The notes beneath the pieces are model-generated. The model was not told the origin of the DNA, did no database searches, and saw only the letters and a program-made list of their open reading frames with translations. 64,000 nucleotides of DNA, taken from the NCBI RefSeq assembly GCF_002205795.1, contig NZ_NIUY01000001.1, forward strand, positions 744,001 to 808,000, read 5' to 3'. Both the position numbers and the translations under genes were made by a program. Shown piece after piece: positions 36,487 to 41,571 of the stretch. The DNA is from Chryseobacterium sp. VAUSW3 (GTDB lineage: Bacteria; Bacteroidota; Bacteroidia; Flavobacteriales; Weeksellaceae). Each line of letters opens with the position of its first letter. The stretch's first letter is position 1.

Positions 36487-39400
36487 TTAACTGATTTTAT
36501 GCCGCGGTAAACCGATTTCATGTTCCTGAGGATAAGGCTTCCGGAACGTCATGCTTACATCTTCTTTAATCTGGCGGTGAATATCGTACTGCTTCTCTTT
36601 GTGGTAAGCGTAACGCGGATCGGGAATCATCGGCATTTTAGCCATTTTAATGACGGTGATGGTCGGGAAATGATAGTCTACCTCAACCGTTCCCAACAGC
36701 AGATAACAGCCGCCACCCATAAAATCGTACTGCTTCAGAGAATCCGGAAAATGCGCCGTGTCGAAATAATCGCCGTTCACGTCGATCCAGGTGCCGAAAA
36801 ACATATTTCCTTTTTTGGTTGGCACGTGTTTTCGGGAAATCAGATACGCCAACATTTTTACCTGTTTTTTATGATTTTTCAAAAGATCTTTCACAAAAAC
36901 AGAACCTCTGTATTGGGTTTCCAGAAGGTCAAACGGTGTGTAGGAAACCGGAAATCCCAGGATTTCGATCTCATCAAAAGCATCTTCAAAAAAATCCCTT
37001 TTCAACTCCGGTAGATGATAGTCCTGAACAGGTTCTTCAAACAGCATTCTACCTCTGTTTTCGGGCTTGAAGTTAATGAGCAGCAATCTTGCTTCAATGA
37101 GAAGTTCATTTTTCTGTTTCCCGGTAAACCGGAAAGCGCCGATAAAAATTAGAATCTGTACTCCCTCAATCCCAATCGGAATGCGTCGGATAAAATCTTC
37201 CAATGATTGATAATTTCCGTTTCTCTCCCGTTCTTCAGAGATAAGCTGCGCAATTTTGGTATCGAGCGACTGAAGGTGCATAAATCCCAGAAAGATATTT
37301 TTTCCCTGCAGTGAAGTCTGAAATTCACTGGAATTAACACAGGGATTCTGAATGATTCCGCCCGACATTTTCGCTTCGTGAACATAAACTTCGGTCCTGT
37401 AAAACCCACCCTGATTATTAATGACCGAAACCATAAATTCCAGCGGATAATAAACCTTTAAATATAAACTCTGGTAACTTTCTACCGCATAAGACGCCGA
37501 GTGCGCCTTGCAGAACGAATATCCCGCAAAAGACTGAATCTGTCGGAAAGCTTCCGTAGTCATCTGTTCCGAATGTCCCTGATTTTTGCAGGATTCAAAA
37601 AAGTTGTTTTTCACTTCATTCAGCTTCTGAATGGACCGCTCTTTTCCGCTCATGGCCCGTCTTAAAATATCTCCATCGGCATGACTGAGGCCGCCAAAAT
37701 ACTGCGCAATTTTGATCACATCTTCCTGATAAACCATGATTCCGTAGGTTTCTTTCAGATTTTCTTCAAATACGGGATGAAAATATTCAAACTGATCGGG
37801 ATTGTTGTGACGGAAAATATATTCCTTCATCATTCCGCTTTGCGCCACACCCGGCCGGATGATGGAAGAGGCAGCCACCAAAGTTCTGTAATCACTGCAT
37901 TTTAAACGTCTTAAAAGTCCGCGCATTGCCGGGCTTTCTATATAAAAACATCCTATTGTTTTTCCTGTTGCCAAATACTCATTACACACCGCTTCATCTT
38001 TAGAAATAGAAGTATCCCGGATATTCACCTCAATTCCACGGTTTTTTTTAATGAGTTCCACCGTGTCGCTGATGGTTCCCAAGCCCCGCTGAGAAAGAAT
38101 ATCAAACTTTTCGAGCCCGATGTCTTCAGCCACATGCATATCAAACTGAACGATCGGAAATCCTTTTGGAGGCATTTCCAAGGCAGAGTAATTCGTAATA
38201 GGCTCTTCGGAAATCAGAATTCCGCAGGCATGCATACTTCTCTGGTTGGGGAATTTTTCCAGAAGTTTACCATATTTGTGAACGAGTTTTACGACTTTGT
38301 TGCCATCATGGGTTTCCATCGGTTTTGTCGCAAGATCATCAAGCTCTTCTTTGGGCAGACCAAAGGCTTTCCCCACTTCCCGGAATATCGAACGGTATTT
38401 GAATTCGACATTGGTTCCGCAAAACGCAACGTGATCTTTTCCGTATTTATTAAAAATATATTCCAGGATTGCGTCTCTGTTTTGCCAGCTCCAGTCGATA
38501 TCAAAATCCGGCGGCGAGGTTCGGTTAAGATTCAGAAAACGTTCAAAATAAAGATCCAGTTCTATCGGGCAGATATCGGTGATTCCCAAACAGTAACTTA
38601 CGATAGAATTGGCTCCACTTCCCCGTCCGACATGCATAAATCCCATGCTGTTGCTGTATTGAACGATATCCCAAGTGATGAGAAAGTATGCGGAAAATTT
38701 GAGGTCACCAATCACTTTAAGTTCTTTTTCAACTCTCTTGCGTGCGACCTCATCATCGGCTGCGTATCGTTTTTCTAATCCCGAATAGGCGAGACTGGTC
38801 AAAAGTTCCATATCCTCCTCTAAAGATCCTTTGAAATATTTTTTGTTTTTGTTTTCGGTGCTTCCACGTTCTTTGTAGGCAAATTCAAAACTGCATTCGG
38901 AGAGAATTTTCTTTGTATTTCTGATGATTTCGGGATACCGCTCGAATGATTTCAGTACACTTGCTTCAGAACTCAGATATTCTGATTTGCTGCAGATGTC
39001 TTCCTCAGAAAGTTTAGAAAGCAAAGTGTTATTTTCAATCGCCCTTAAAACCCGATGTAAATGATATTCTTTTTTGGTACTGAACGTTACCGGATGCAGA
39101 ATTACCATTTTGTAGGTTCTGCTCATCAACTCCGGACGGATCATTAAGTTTAATTCTTCCTCGCGCAAACCGATAAATTCATGCTCCTGAAGCGTTTCCG
39201 GAATGTTATTGATTGGATAGATCACAAAAACCTGTTCAAACGGGGGCGCTTTTTCCGTGAGTTCCTCGCCATCACAATTGTGTGCGGTCAGTACGCGGTT
39301 GATTTCTCCAATCCCGCTGAACTCTTTTGCCACAGCAATGTATAACAGTTTGTTTTCTTTTCTTACTTCAACACCTGCGATGGGTTTGATGCCATAGTTT

Positions 39401-39555
39401 TCGCACTCTTTTTTGAATTCATAAATTCCGGTAACGGTATTAATGTCCGTTAAAACTAATTCTTTAGTTCCTGATTTGTACGCCTGCTGTACCAGTGCCT
39501 CAATGGAGAGTGTGCCGTAGCGTAAACTGTGATATGAATGACAGTTCAGGAACAT
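36487..39555 (-). CDS. DnaE-type DNA polymerase III alpha subunit, second copy (DnaE2-like)
   Basis: 1022 aa, shorter than replicative DnaE (about 1160 or more) and without its long C-terminal tau-binding region. Order: PHP domain (1-260), palm/fingers with the catalytic Asp pair D352/D354 in SPPDFDIDW, the thumb region, a HhH segment (about 790-815, IPIGIEGVQILIFIGAFR) and an OB-like end. PHP metal ligands are partly lost (LNCHS and LTDIN in place of LHxHS and LTDHx). Its start shares a base with dinB's stop. Inference: translesion or error-prone polymerase induced with dinB. Confidence 0.9.
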   Translation of the reverse strand: MFLNCHSYHSLRYGTLSIEALVQQAYKSGTKELVLTDINTVTGIYEFKKECENYGIKPIAGVEVRKENKLLYIAVAKEFSGIGEINRVLTAHNCDGEELTEKAPPFEQVFVIYPINNIPETLQEHEFIGLREEELNLMIRPELMSRTYKMVILHPVTFSTKKEYHLHRVLRAIENNTLLSKLSEEDICSKSEYLSSEASVLKSFERYPEIIRNTKKILSECSFEFAYKERGSTENKNKKYFKGSLEEDMELLTSLAYSGLEKRYAADDEVARKRVEKELKVIGDLKFSAYFLITWDIVQYSNSMGFMHVGRGSGANSIVSYCLGITDICPIELDLYFERFLNLNRTSPPDFDIDWSWQNRDAILEYIFNKYGKDHVAFCGTNVEFKYRSIFREVGKAFGLPKEELDDLATKPMETHDGNKVVKLVHKYGKLLEKFPNQRSMHACGILISEEPITNYSALEMPPKGFPIVQFDMHVAEDIGLEKFDILSQRGLGTISDTVELIKKNRGIEVNIRDTSISKDEAVCNEYLATGKTIGCFYIESPAMRGLLRRLKCSDYRTLVAASSIIRPGVAQSGMMKEYIFRHNNPDQFEYFHPVFEENLKETYGIMVYQEDVIKIAQYFGGLSHADGDILRRAMSGKERSIQKLNEVKNNFFESCKNQGHSEQMTTEAFRQIQSFAGYSFCKAHSASYAVESYQSLYLKVYYPLEFMVSVINNQGGFYRTEVYVHEAKMSGGIIQNPCVNSSEFQTSLQGKNIFLGFMHLQSLDTKIAQLISEERERNGNYQSLEDFIRRIPIGIEGVQILIFIGAFRFTGKQKNELLIEARLLLINFKPENRGRMLFEEPVQDYHLPELKRDFFEDAFDEIEILGFPVSYTPFDLLETQYRGSVFVKDLLKNHKKQVKMLAYLISRKHVPTKKGNMFFGTWIDVNGDYFDTAHFPDSLKQYDFMGGGCYLLLGTVEVDYHFPTITVIKMAKMPMIPDPRYAYHKEKQYDIHRQIKEDVSMTFRKPYPQEHEIGLPRHKIS

Positions 39556-40733
39556 TATTTATATGTTTTTGGGGCATCTGCAGTTCCGTCCGAGAAATCA
39601 AACCCTGAAGCCCGTCTCACGGCATCAGCGCCAAAGCGGTTCTTAATACGGTCCATGGTTTGGTAAAGGTTCATCAGTTCTTCGGTATCTTCAAAAAGAT
39701 TCATCTGGTGACTGCCGTGTACCAAGCCGGTAAACCGTAAACCAACCAAACGCAGGCGCATTCTGCGGGTATAGATTTTATTAAACAAATCCTGAGCAAT
39801 CCGCGAAAGGGTATGATCTGCTGCAGTATAAGCCACTTTGCATTGTTTGGTCTCCGTATCGAAATTGGCGTAACGGATTTTGATGACCACGATGGAAGTG
39901 AGCCATTTTTCTTTGCGCAGCTGGTAAGCGAGTTCTTCTGCCATTCCTGAAATCAGACTTCTTATGGCAAACACATCCATAGTATCATTGGAAAAAGTAT
40001 GTTCTTTTGAAATTGATTTTCTTTCGGAATAAGGAATTACTGGGGTTTCATCGATTCCGTTGGCTTTTCTCCAGAGCTCGGTTCCATTTTTTCCGATCAT
40101 CTGCTGAAGGGCTAATACCGGCATTTCGGAAAGGGTTTTAATGGTCCGGATGCCGATTCTTGAGAGCAAGCGAAAGGTCGCTTCGCCAACCATTGGGATT
40201 TTCCGGATGGAAAGTGGATTAAGGAATGGCTTAATCTGGGATTCATTAATTTCAAGCTTACCGGAAGGTTTGGATTCTCCGGTTCCGATTTTCGAAACGG
40301 TTTTATTCACAGAAAGTGCAAAACTGATCGGCAATCCGGTTTCCTTAGTTACCTGTGATGCAATTTCCTGAGTCCACTGGTAACAGCCGAAAAATTTATC
40401 CATTCCGGTAAGATCCAGATAAAACTCATCAATACTTGCTTTTTCCATCACGGGGACACGCTGCTGAATGATTTCGGTGACATCATGTGATAATTTCGAG
40501 AACATTTCATAATCACCTTTCACCACTTTTGCATCGGGACAAAGTTTCAGCGCCATCTGGATCGGCATCGCCGAGCGCACACCAAAATATCGGGCTTCAT
40601 ATGAACATGATGCCACTACACCGCGCTCGCCACCACCTATGATCAGGGGAATGCCTTTCAGATCGCTGTTCTGAAGCCTGGCGCAGGAAACGAAGAACGC
40701 ATCCAAATCCATATGTGCAATTGCATGATTCAT
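39555..40733 (-). CDS. dinB: Y-family DNA polymerase (DinB/Pol IV-like)
   Basis: 392 aa. The catalytic carboxylates are present: D9 in HMDLDAFF and D102/E103 in ASIDEFYLDL, so it is active, unlike ImuB. The HhH thumb region GEATFRLLSRIGIRTIKTL and little-finger domain follow. The beta-clamp motif QMNLF lies near residue 352. It overlaps the dnaE2-type gene by one base and diverges from the S24 regulator with 61 bp between the start codons. Confidence 0.93.
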   Translation of the reverse strand: MNHAIAHMDLDAFFVSCARLQNSDLKGIPLIIGGGERGVVASCSYEARYFGVRSAMPIQMALKLCPDAKVVKGDYEMFSKLSHDVTEIIQQRVPVMEKASIDEFYLDLTGMDKFFGCYQWTQEIASQVTKETGLPISFALSVNKTVSKIGTGESKPSGKLEINESQIKPFLNPLSIRKIPMVGEATFRLLSRIGIRTIKTLSEMPVLALQQMIGKNGTELWRKANGIDETPVIPYSERKSISKEHTFSNDTMDVFAIRSLISGMAEELAYQLRKEKWLTSIVVIKIRYANFDTETKQCKVAYTAADHTLSRIAQDLFNKIYTRRMRLRLVGLRFTGLVHGSHQMNLFEDTEELMNLYQTMDRIKNRFGADAVRRASGFDFSDGTADAPKTYK

Positions 40734-40737
40734 GACG

Positions 40738-40794
40738 CAAAATTATACACTATTTGTCCCAAAATCATTATATTTGTGGATACAATTTGTCCCA
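40738..40794. promoter_or_regulatory. Shared divergent control region with two ATTTGTCCCA direct repeats
   Basis: ATTTGTCCCA occurs at 40752-40761 and 40785-40794 (start-to-start 33 bp, about three helical turns). Between them lies TATATTTG (40769-40776), the -7 box for the regulator. On the minus strand TAATTTTG (40738-40745) is the -7 box for dinB, ending 4 nt before its ATG. The left repeat sits just upstream of the dinB box; the right one abuts the regulator's ATG. They fit an operator for the S24 regulator, controlling both directions. Confidence 0.6.
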
Positions 40795-41571
40795 ATGTCA
40801 GTTTTTTCAGATAACATCAGGTTTTTAAGAGGTAAGAAGGATTTAGCTCAACAAGGGTTCGCAGATCAGCTCGGAATCAGTCGCGATCGCTATTCGAAAT
40901 ATGAAAGTGGCCGCTCGGAGCCACCGTATGAAATCCTCATCAAGATATCCAAATTTTTCCACATCAGTATTGATTTGCTCCTAACGGTGGATATCCGGAA
41001 ATATCCTTTGGAAGGAATGATGAAGCTGCCTGACAACCGGATTGTTTTGCCGGTAGTAGTCGATCAGCACGGCAATAATTTTATTGAAATTGTACCGCAG
41101 AAAGCTTCCATGGGCTATCTAAATGGGTACAGCGATCCGGAATATATGGAAAGTCTGCAGCGCATGAATCTTCCGTTTCTGAAACATGGAAAGTTCCGCG
41201 GATTTCTGGCTGATGGAGATTCCATGCCGCCATTTGCTGACGGATCTTATGTAATTGGCGAGTATGTAGAAAATATTGCAGACCTGAAACCCGAGAAGGA
41301 ATACATTTTTGTAACCCCACAGGGAATCACTTATAAAACTTTAGTGGCGGTAAATTCCTCTTCTGTCACCGTATCTGCTGACAACCCATTTTATCCGCCG
41401 TACGAAATCGCTCTCGAGGATCTTGTGGAAATCTGGCGTTATGTGCGCGGAATTTTGCCACAGGATTACAAACCCAACCAGTCTTATGATACAGGAATAA
41501 AAAGCATGTTCTTGGAAATTAAAAAAGATATTAAAGAATTGGATGATAAAGTCTCTAATTTTAAATCATAA
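40795..41571 (+). CDS. HTH-S24 (LexA/CI-like) transcriptional regulator
   Basis: 258 aa from MSVFSDNIRF; 21 in-frame codons upstream run through the promoter and operator and are excluded. An N-terminal XRE helix-turn-helix (residues 5-62, LAQQGFADQLGISRDRYSKYE) joins a LexA-like S24 domain with a Ser-Lys dyad, S143 in ADGDSMPPF and K181 in ITYKTLVAV (spacing 38, as in LexA). The usual Ala-Gly cleavage site reads Met106-Gly107 in KASMGYLNGY. A short coiled end (KKDIKELDDKVSNF) follows. Probably a DNA-damage-sensing repressor of dinB-dnaE2. Confidence 0.88.
   Translation: MSVFSDNIRFLRGKKDLAQQGFADQLGISRDRYSKYESGRSEPPYEILIKISKFFHISIDLLLTVDIRKYPLEGMMKLPDNRIVLPVVVDQHGNNFIEIVPQKASMGYLNGYSDPEYMESLQRMNLPFLKHGKFRGFLADGDSMPPFADGSYVIGEYVENIADLKPEKEYIFVTPQGITYKTLVAVNSSSVTVSADNPFYPPYEIALEDLVEIWRYVRGILPQDYKPNQSYDTGIKSMFLEIKKDIKELDDKVSNFKS

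Follow-up and report, generated by a model that had tools for sequence, protein, structure and literature searches.

A divergent S24-type repressor and dinB-dnaE2-like operon in Chryseobacterium as a probable local mutagenesis switch with exchangeable operator specificity

Introduction

Regulators of the kind studied here were identified by Sanchez-Osuna et al. 2021 as SOS repressors of the Bacteroidetes with dinB-dnaE operons in their regulon, and the regulator of Elizabethkingia anophelis, a member of the Weeksellaceae, was found to bind its own operator and to be mitomycin C-inducible together with its divergent polymerase (PMC8565304). The same authors accepted diverged motifs in the Weeksellaceae, gave the Ala-Gly scissile bond as conserved and proposed a gradual duplication-divergence model for operator specificity (PMC8565304). 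As binding and induction were demonstrated there in a relative, the core idea, an SOS polymerase operon of the Bacteroidota under S24 control, was already known.

The module analysed here lies in a window of 64,000 nucleotides from Chryseobacterium sp. VAUSW3 ("the window" being that whole stretch). Judged from the published description, it shares with the non-canonical LexA of the Bacteroidetes an HTH_3 plus S24 architecture with a Ser-Lys dyad, operators in its own promoter, a divergent error-prone polymerase, a dinB-dnaE operon and the absence of canonical LexA. The family, Weeksellaceae, also fits, the named close relatives being Chryseobacterium and Kaistella, and the operator core ACAATTTGT is common to the module and the tested TTAC-AAATT-GTAA site. 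The module differs in its Met-Gly scissile bond and in its operators, GATACAATTTGTCCC and TACACTATTTGTCCC, for which the GGA-N5-TCC and CTAA-N5-TTAG motifs of non-canonical LexA were tried and rejected, their sequence or spacing being wrong. It also differs in that its operator was found at its own module only, and in a specificity that has apparently changed by cassette replacement, beside the published gradual model.

Three further systems invite comparison. The immunity regions of lambdoid phages (CI and P22 c2) resemble the module in repressor architecture, by Foldseek, and in joining repressor and operators in an exchangeable specificity cassette, whereas the module controls host translesion polymerases rather than phage lysis genes and no phage genes were seen beside it. 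UmuDAb and HdiR are likewise S24 repressors that control mainly error-prone polymerases without LexA, but they belong to Moraxellaceae and Streptococcaceae, form separate S24 clades and have other partners such as DdrR. An earlier note on this DNA had drawn a parallel with imuA-imuB-dnaE2, with the regulator in place of imuA. Both have a DnaE2-type polymerase on one transcript with a Y-family protein; the parallel otherwise fails, because there is no ImuA, the neighbour is a divergent, local HTH repressor, and the DinB keeps its active-site residues, unlike the inactive ImuB. The regulator is unrelated to ImuA and carries no ImuA-like feature, and nothing has been replaced.

Results

The module consists of an HTH-S24 regulator facing a dinB-dnaE2 pair whose reading frames overlap by 1 bp, an arrangement that had been drawn correctly in the earlier note and is borne out by open reading frames, Pfam, S24 residues and Foldseek (Table 1). 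Pfam assigned IMS and IMS_C to DinB, and DNA_pol3_alpha, finger, HHH_6 and PHP to the DnaE2-like protein, and NCBIfam agreed with it that the first is a Y polymerase of the DinB type and the second a polymerase of the DnaE type. Read by eye, the catalytic acids are kept in both DinB (MDLDAFF and SIDEFYLD, in line with the intact active site claimed earlier) and the DnaE2-like protein (PPDFDID and KFDIL), and a QMNLF motif in DinB resembles a clamp-binding site. As the genome encodes another DnaE (an open frame of 1564 aa) and another Y polymerase (a second dinB) elsewhere, the pair in the module is accessory.

Table 1. Features of the module, in positions of the window
Feature	Position	Strand	Basis or remark
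dnaE2-like gene, second DNA polymerase III alpha subunit, 1022 aa	36487..39555	-	ORF list and Pfam/NCBIfam
dinB, Y-family polymerase, 392 aa	39555..40733	-	ORF list and Pfam/NCBIfam; catalytic acids intact
dinB -7 box TAATTTTG	40738..40745	-	4 bp from dinB start codon; conserved columns
Predicted operator 1 TACACTATTTGTCCCA	40746..40761	+	adjoins dinB -7 box, upstream of regulator -7 box
Regulator -7 box TATATTTG	40769..40776	+	conserved columns
Predicted operator 2 GATACAATTTGTCCCA	40779..40794	+	ends at regulator start codon; aligned in 82 loci
S24-type repressor, 258 aa, HTH_3 and Ser143/Lys181 dyad	40795..41571	+	Pfam, alignments, Foldseek

The repressor gene had previously been started at 40732, which is too early: the conserved start is the ATG at 40795, which is common to the homologs and is the codon from which NCBI annotates a plasmid homolog, and the longer frame would run through both operators. 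Pfam finds only HTH_3-type domains on the protein (PF01381, E 4e-13), the penta-helical, CI-like kind that non-canonical LexA carries at its N terminus, with the recognition helix SRDRYSKYE including D31 and S34; the canonical LexA combination PF01726 plus PF00717 is absent from it, and PF00717 (S24) gives no match. That the regulator is of S24 type despite this missing match is supported by GDSM (S143) and YKT (K181) motifs at LexA-like spacing from M106-G107 in alignments, by the NCBI name of the plasmid homolog ('LexA family transcriptional regulator') and by the AlphaFold model, whose best Foldseek matches in the PDB were lambda CI (E 1.2e-7), LexA and P22 c2. The model is of medium confidence (mean pLDDT 78, pTM 0.51), its domains being usable and their arrangement not.

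Homologs were found across the class (E 1e-25 to 1e-135) and in 73 of 149 Weeksellaceae genomes, several of which carry 2-4 paralogs; no paralog was found in the genome of the window, and the matches to phage-borne copies were all weak and spanned less than 80% of the query.

The 61-bp gap between the dinB and regulator starts holds two predicted operators 33 bp apart, marked by two occurrences of ATTTGTCCCA and lying across or beside the -7 box of each promoter. The boxes of both genes are of Bacteroidota type, that of dinB, TAATTTTG, matching the consensus TAnnTTTG. Operator 2 forms a 15-bp dyad (G-NN-AYAANTTRT-NN-C) whose symmetry is complete in many relatives; in the clade of the window one arm has changed, and the operators there are only partly palindromic (GATAC...GTCCC). 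Comparison of neighbourhoods, as the earlier note had advised, showed dinB divergent from the regulator at 65 of the 82 analysed family loci, 59 of these with a gap of 61-62 bp, a degree of conservation which argues that the layout is not due to chance.

The regulator was also seen with other partners. At four loci (L058, L059, L061 and L065) a regulator of this kind is divergent not from dinB-dnaE2 but from a Y polymerase that shares only 23-24% identity with the DinB of the window and is UmuC-like by eye, and the switch is therefore paired with different polymerases. At a further three (L074, L084 and L088) a regulator clade lacks dinB, and a conserved Gly-rich peptide of 94 aa (MKNLKKLDRNELKTISGNG...) is encoded divergently, some 450 bp upstream of the regulator; this looks like a bacteriocin precursor, making a damage-induced bacteriocin possible.

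The putative cleavage bond, M106-G107, has Met at P1 in all 82 analysed family homologs of the repressor's type, and further family homologs of that type, beyond the 82, are also Met-Gly. Outside the family 75 of 77 homologs have Ala-Gly, as do two divergent homologs in one genus of the family that belong to another type. Met as the P1 residue of a LexA was not reported in the literature searched. As P1 is Met rather than Ala in every analysed homolog of the type, RecA-stimulated autocleavage is not guaranteed, and related Ser/Lys peptidases prefer a small P1 residue. The bond might be cut without RecA or not at all, and the repressor relieved in some other way, be it by an antirepressor, by ClpX-type degradation or by a small ligand; the module would then be a regulated mutagenesis cassette and not a classical SOS switch. 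Cyanobacterial LexAs that are uncut or outside the SOS response provide a precedent; it has been proposed that the LexA of Synechocystis, which has neither Ala-Gly nor the catalytic Ser, stands outside such a response (PMC4759255). We consider this rather unlikely here, since the Ser-Lys dyad and the Gly at P1' are invariant in alignments, the strong conservation suggests that the site is still in use, and a mitomycin-inducible regulator is published for the same bacterial family, although it may differ at P1. In a distant homolog (L229) the cleavage Gly has been lost (D-V for A-G) and the Ser is still in its motif; this is possibly a non-cleavable repressor.

Residues 31 and 34 of the recognition helix tracked the outer bases of the operator half-site. 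D31 paired with CCC at 7 of 7 loci, V31 with S34 paired with ATC at 14 of 14, V or I at 34 paired with AAC or GAC at 35 of 35, and G31 without V34 paired with AGC at 16 of 21. On a tree built from the C-terminal domain only, independent pairs agreed in 6.6/8, 4.5/5, 4/4 and 3.6/4, with the opposite direction almost never seen, the covariation tests all being made on this one tree and the sign test falling below p<0.05 for AAC only (0.016). The operator was predicted correctly at 13 of 16 held-out loci fetched later, all 3 misses being G31/A34 regulators, which are a loose class, and at 7 of 8 out-of-family homologs with a clear dyad. Residue 31 aligns with Val33 of P22 c2, which contacts bases in the solved complex. 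Selection for differing operators among the paralogs of one genome was considered but found no support, the right arm being common to 10 of 28 pairs against a background of 26%.

Comparison of near relatives revealed replacement of the regulator beside conserved polymerases. L075 is a locus of the same genus whose dinB (92%) and dnaE2 (94%) are nearly those of the window and whose flanks are the same on both sides, but its repressor is only 64% identical and its operator differs (GTTACAAATTGTAAC). Nucleotide identity between the two was 74-95% across dnaE2-dinB, fell to 51-71% between the start of dinB and the end of the regulator and was about 83-88% beyond, whereas a control locus (L002) retained 87-91% identity to the window across the regulator. 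In trees the L075 dinB nested with that of the window (97) and its regulator grouped with that of L069 (95). Similarly, L081 and L092 have dinB 99% and regulators 55% identical. The exchange may also be confined to one domain: L072 and L079 are 97% identical in dinB, 88% in the C-terminal and 60% in the N-terminal domain, with differing operators, while L090 and L096 are 95% identical in the N-terminal domain, with an identical operator, and 54% in the C-terminal domain. In these alignments the operator goes with the DNA-binding domain. A complete dnaE-dinB-regulator module (L258; NZ_CP033916.1, 55312-60365) was found on a mobilizable plasmid of Chryseobacterium shandongense, which is possibly one vehicle for such replacement.

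Shared ancestry alone could in principle produce the agreement of helix and operator, with the apparent swaps reflecting differential loss of paralogous modules, and the 2-4 paralogs in several genomes provide material in which recombination or loss could mix alleles. This is distinctly improbable. The agreement persists on the tree made without the HTH domain, and most held-out loci follow the code. The window and L075 have both flanks in common, so that the change between them is replacement at the same locus, and the domain mosaics of L090/L096 and L072/L079, in which the operator follows the N-terminal domain, likewise speak against it.

To define the regulon of the repressor, the genome was searched by pattern and by stretch. 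The earlier note had asked for a check for lexA and further operator sites, and had held that a LexA box regulon elsewhere would count against its proposal: PF00717 had no match in the genome (the model also misses the repressor of the module itself) and the operator was found at the module only. ATTTGTCCCA occurs 12 times, 2 in the module and 10 elsewhere; none of these 10 has the left operator arm and they were treated as chance occurrences (8 intragenic, 1 just before the pyrG start and 1 just before the likely mraZ start). Allowing <=1 mismatch, the fuller operator pattern returned a single intragenic site besides the pair in the module, and recA and the second dinB are without an operator (scores of 0.9 and 3.8 vs 24-27 for real sites). 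The genome scan, which could miss a degenerate site, thus supports a regulon consisting of the module only. A broad SOS regulon with overlooked degenerate operators is nonetheless a poor prospect, for although other families of Bacteroidetes have larger published regulons (8.9 +/- 3.3 operons) and HTH_3 repressors can use imperfect sites, near-matches were not enriched in the scan (426 sites within three mismatches vs 506 for the control) and neither recA nor the second dinB has a site. Outside the window, near-identical sites at G000:C1:553507, 553804 and 554101 lie exactly 297 bp apart inside long open reading frames, pointing to a gene of 99-codon tandem repeats.

Discussion

The module is probably an autoregulated, damage-triggered local mutagenesis switch whose specificity evolves by cassette exchange. 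Its anatomy, the placement of the operators, their absence elsewhere, helix-operator covariation and cassette replacement are read here from sequence; repression, damage induction, RecA dependence and Met-Gly cleavage we infer. Dimers of the S24 repressor would occupy both 15-bp operators of the 61-bp divergent promoter and thereby prevent transcription of dinB-dnaE2 as well as of the repressor's own gene. On DNA damage, RecA filaments would provoke self-cleavage of the repressor at Met106-Gly107 via Ser143/Lys181, freeing both promoters and allowing DinB and DnaE2 to carry out mutagenic lesion bypass. The regulon in this genome would be the module alone, with specificity lying in helix residues 31 and 34, co-varying with the outer operator bases, and with repressor and operators exchanged jointly among strains and paralogs and the polymerases left in place. 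The earlier suggestion of a local damage response stands to the extent that local S24 control of the polymerase pair is most likely (the operator being found only here, with no PF00717 match and no paralog), while its core idea is a published one. Within the literature searched, the novel features appear to be the confinement of the operator to the module in this genome, the code linking helix and operator, replacement as a cassette, and Met-Gly as the scissile bond.

For the family as a whole, we lean towards the view that the Weeksellaceae SOS polymerase switch acts like a phage immunity region, in which the repressor, or its DNA-binding domain alone, is repeatedly swapped together with its operators beside near-unchanged polymerases under a two-residue code, with Met-Gly fixed. 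The Met-Gly bond would be a natural variation on S24 self-cleavage, the step that governs how readily mutagenic polymerases are set free. Evolution has altered LexA-binding motifs with unusual frequency, and it has long been asked how this can happen while the regulon stays intact. A small, self-contained module whose two-residue code can be read, and in which replacements have occurred naturally at the same locus, makes the question directly testable. If this view is true, SOS-box change in the Weeksellaceae would come about by cassette exchange and not only by gradual drift after duplication.
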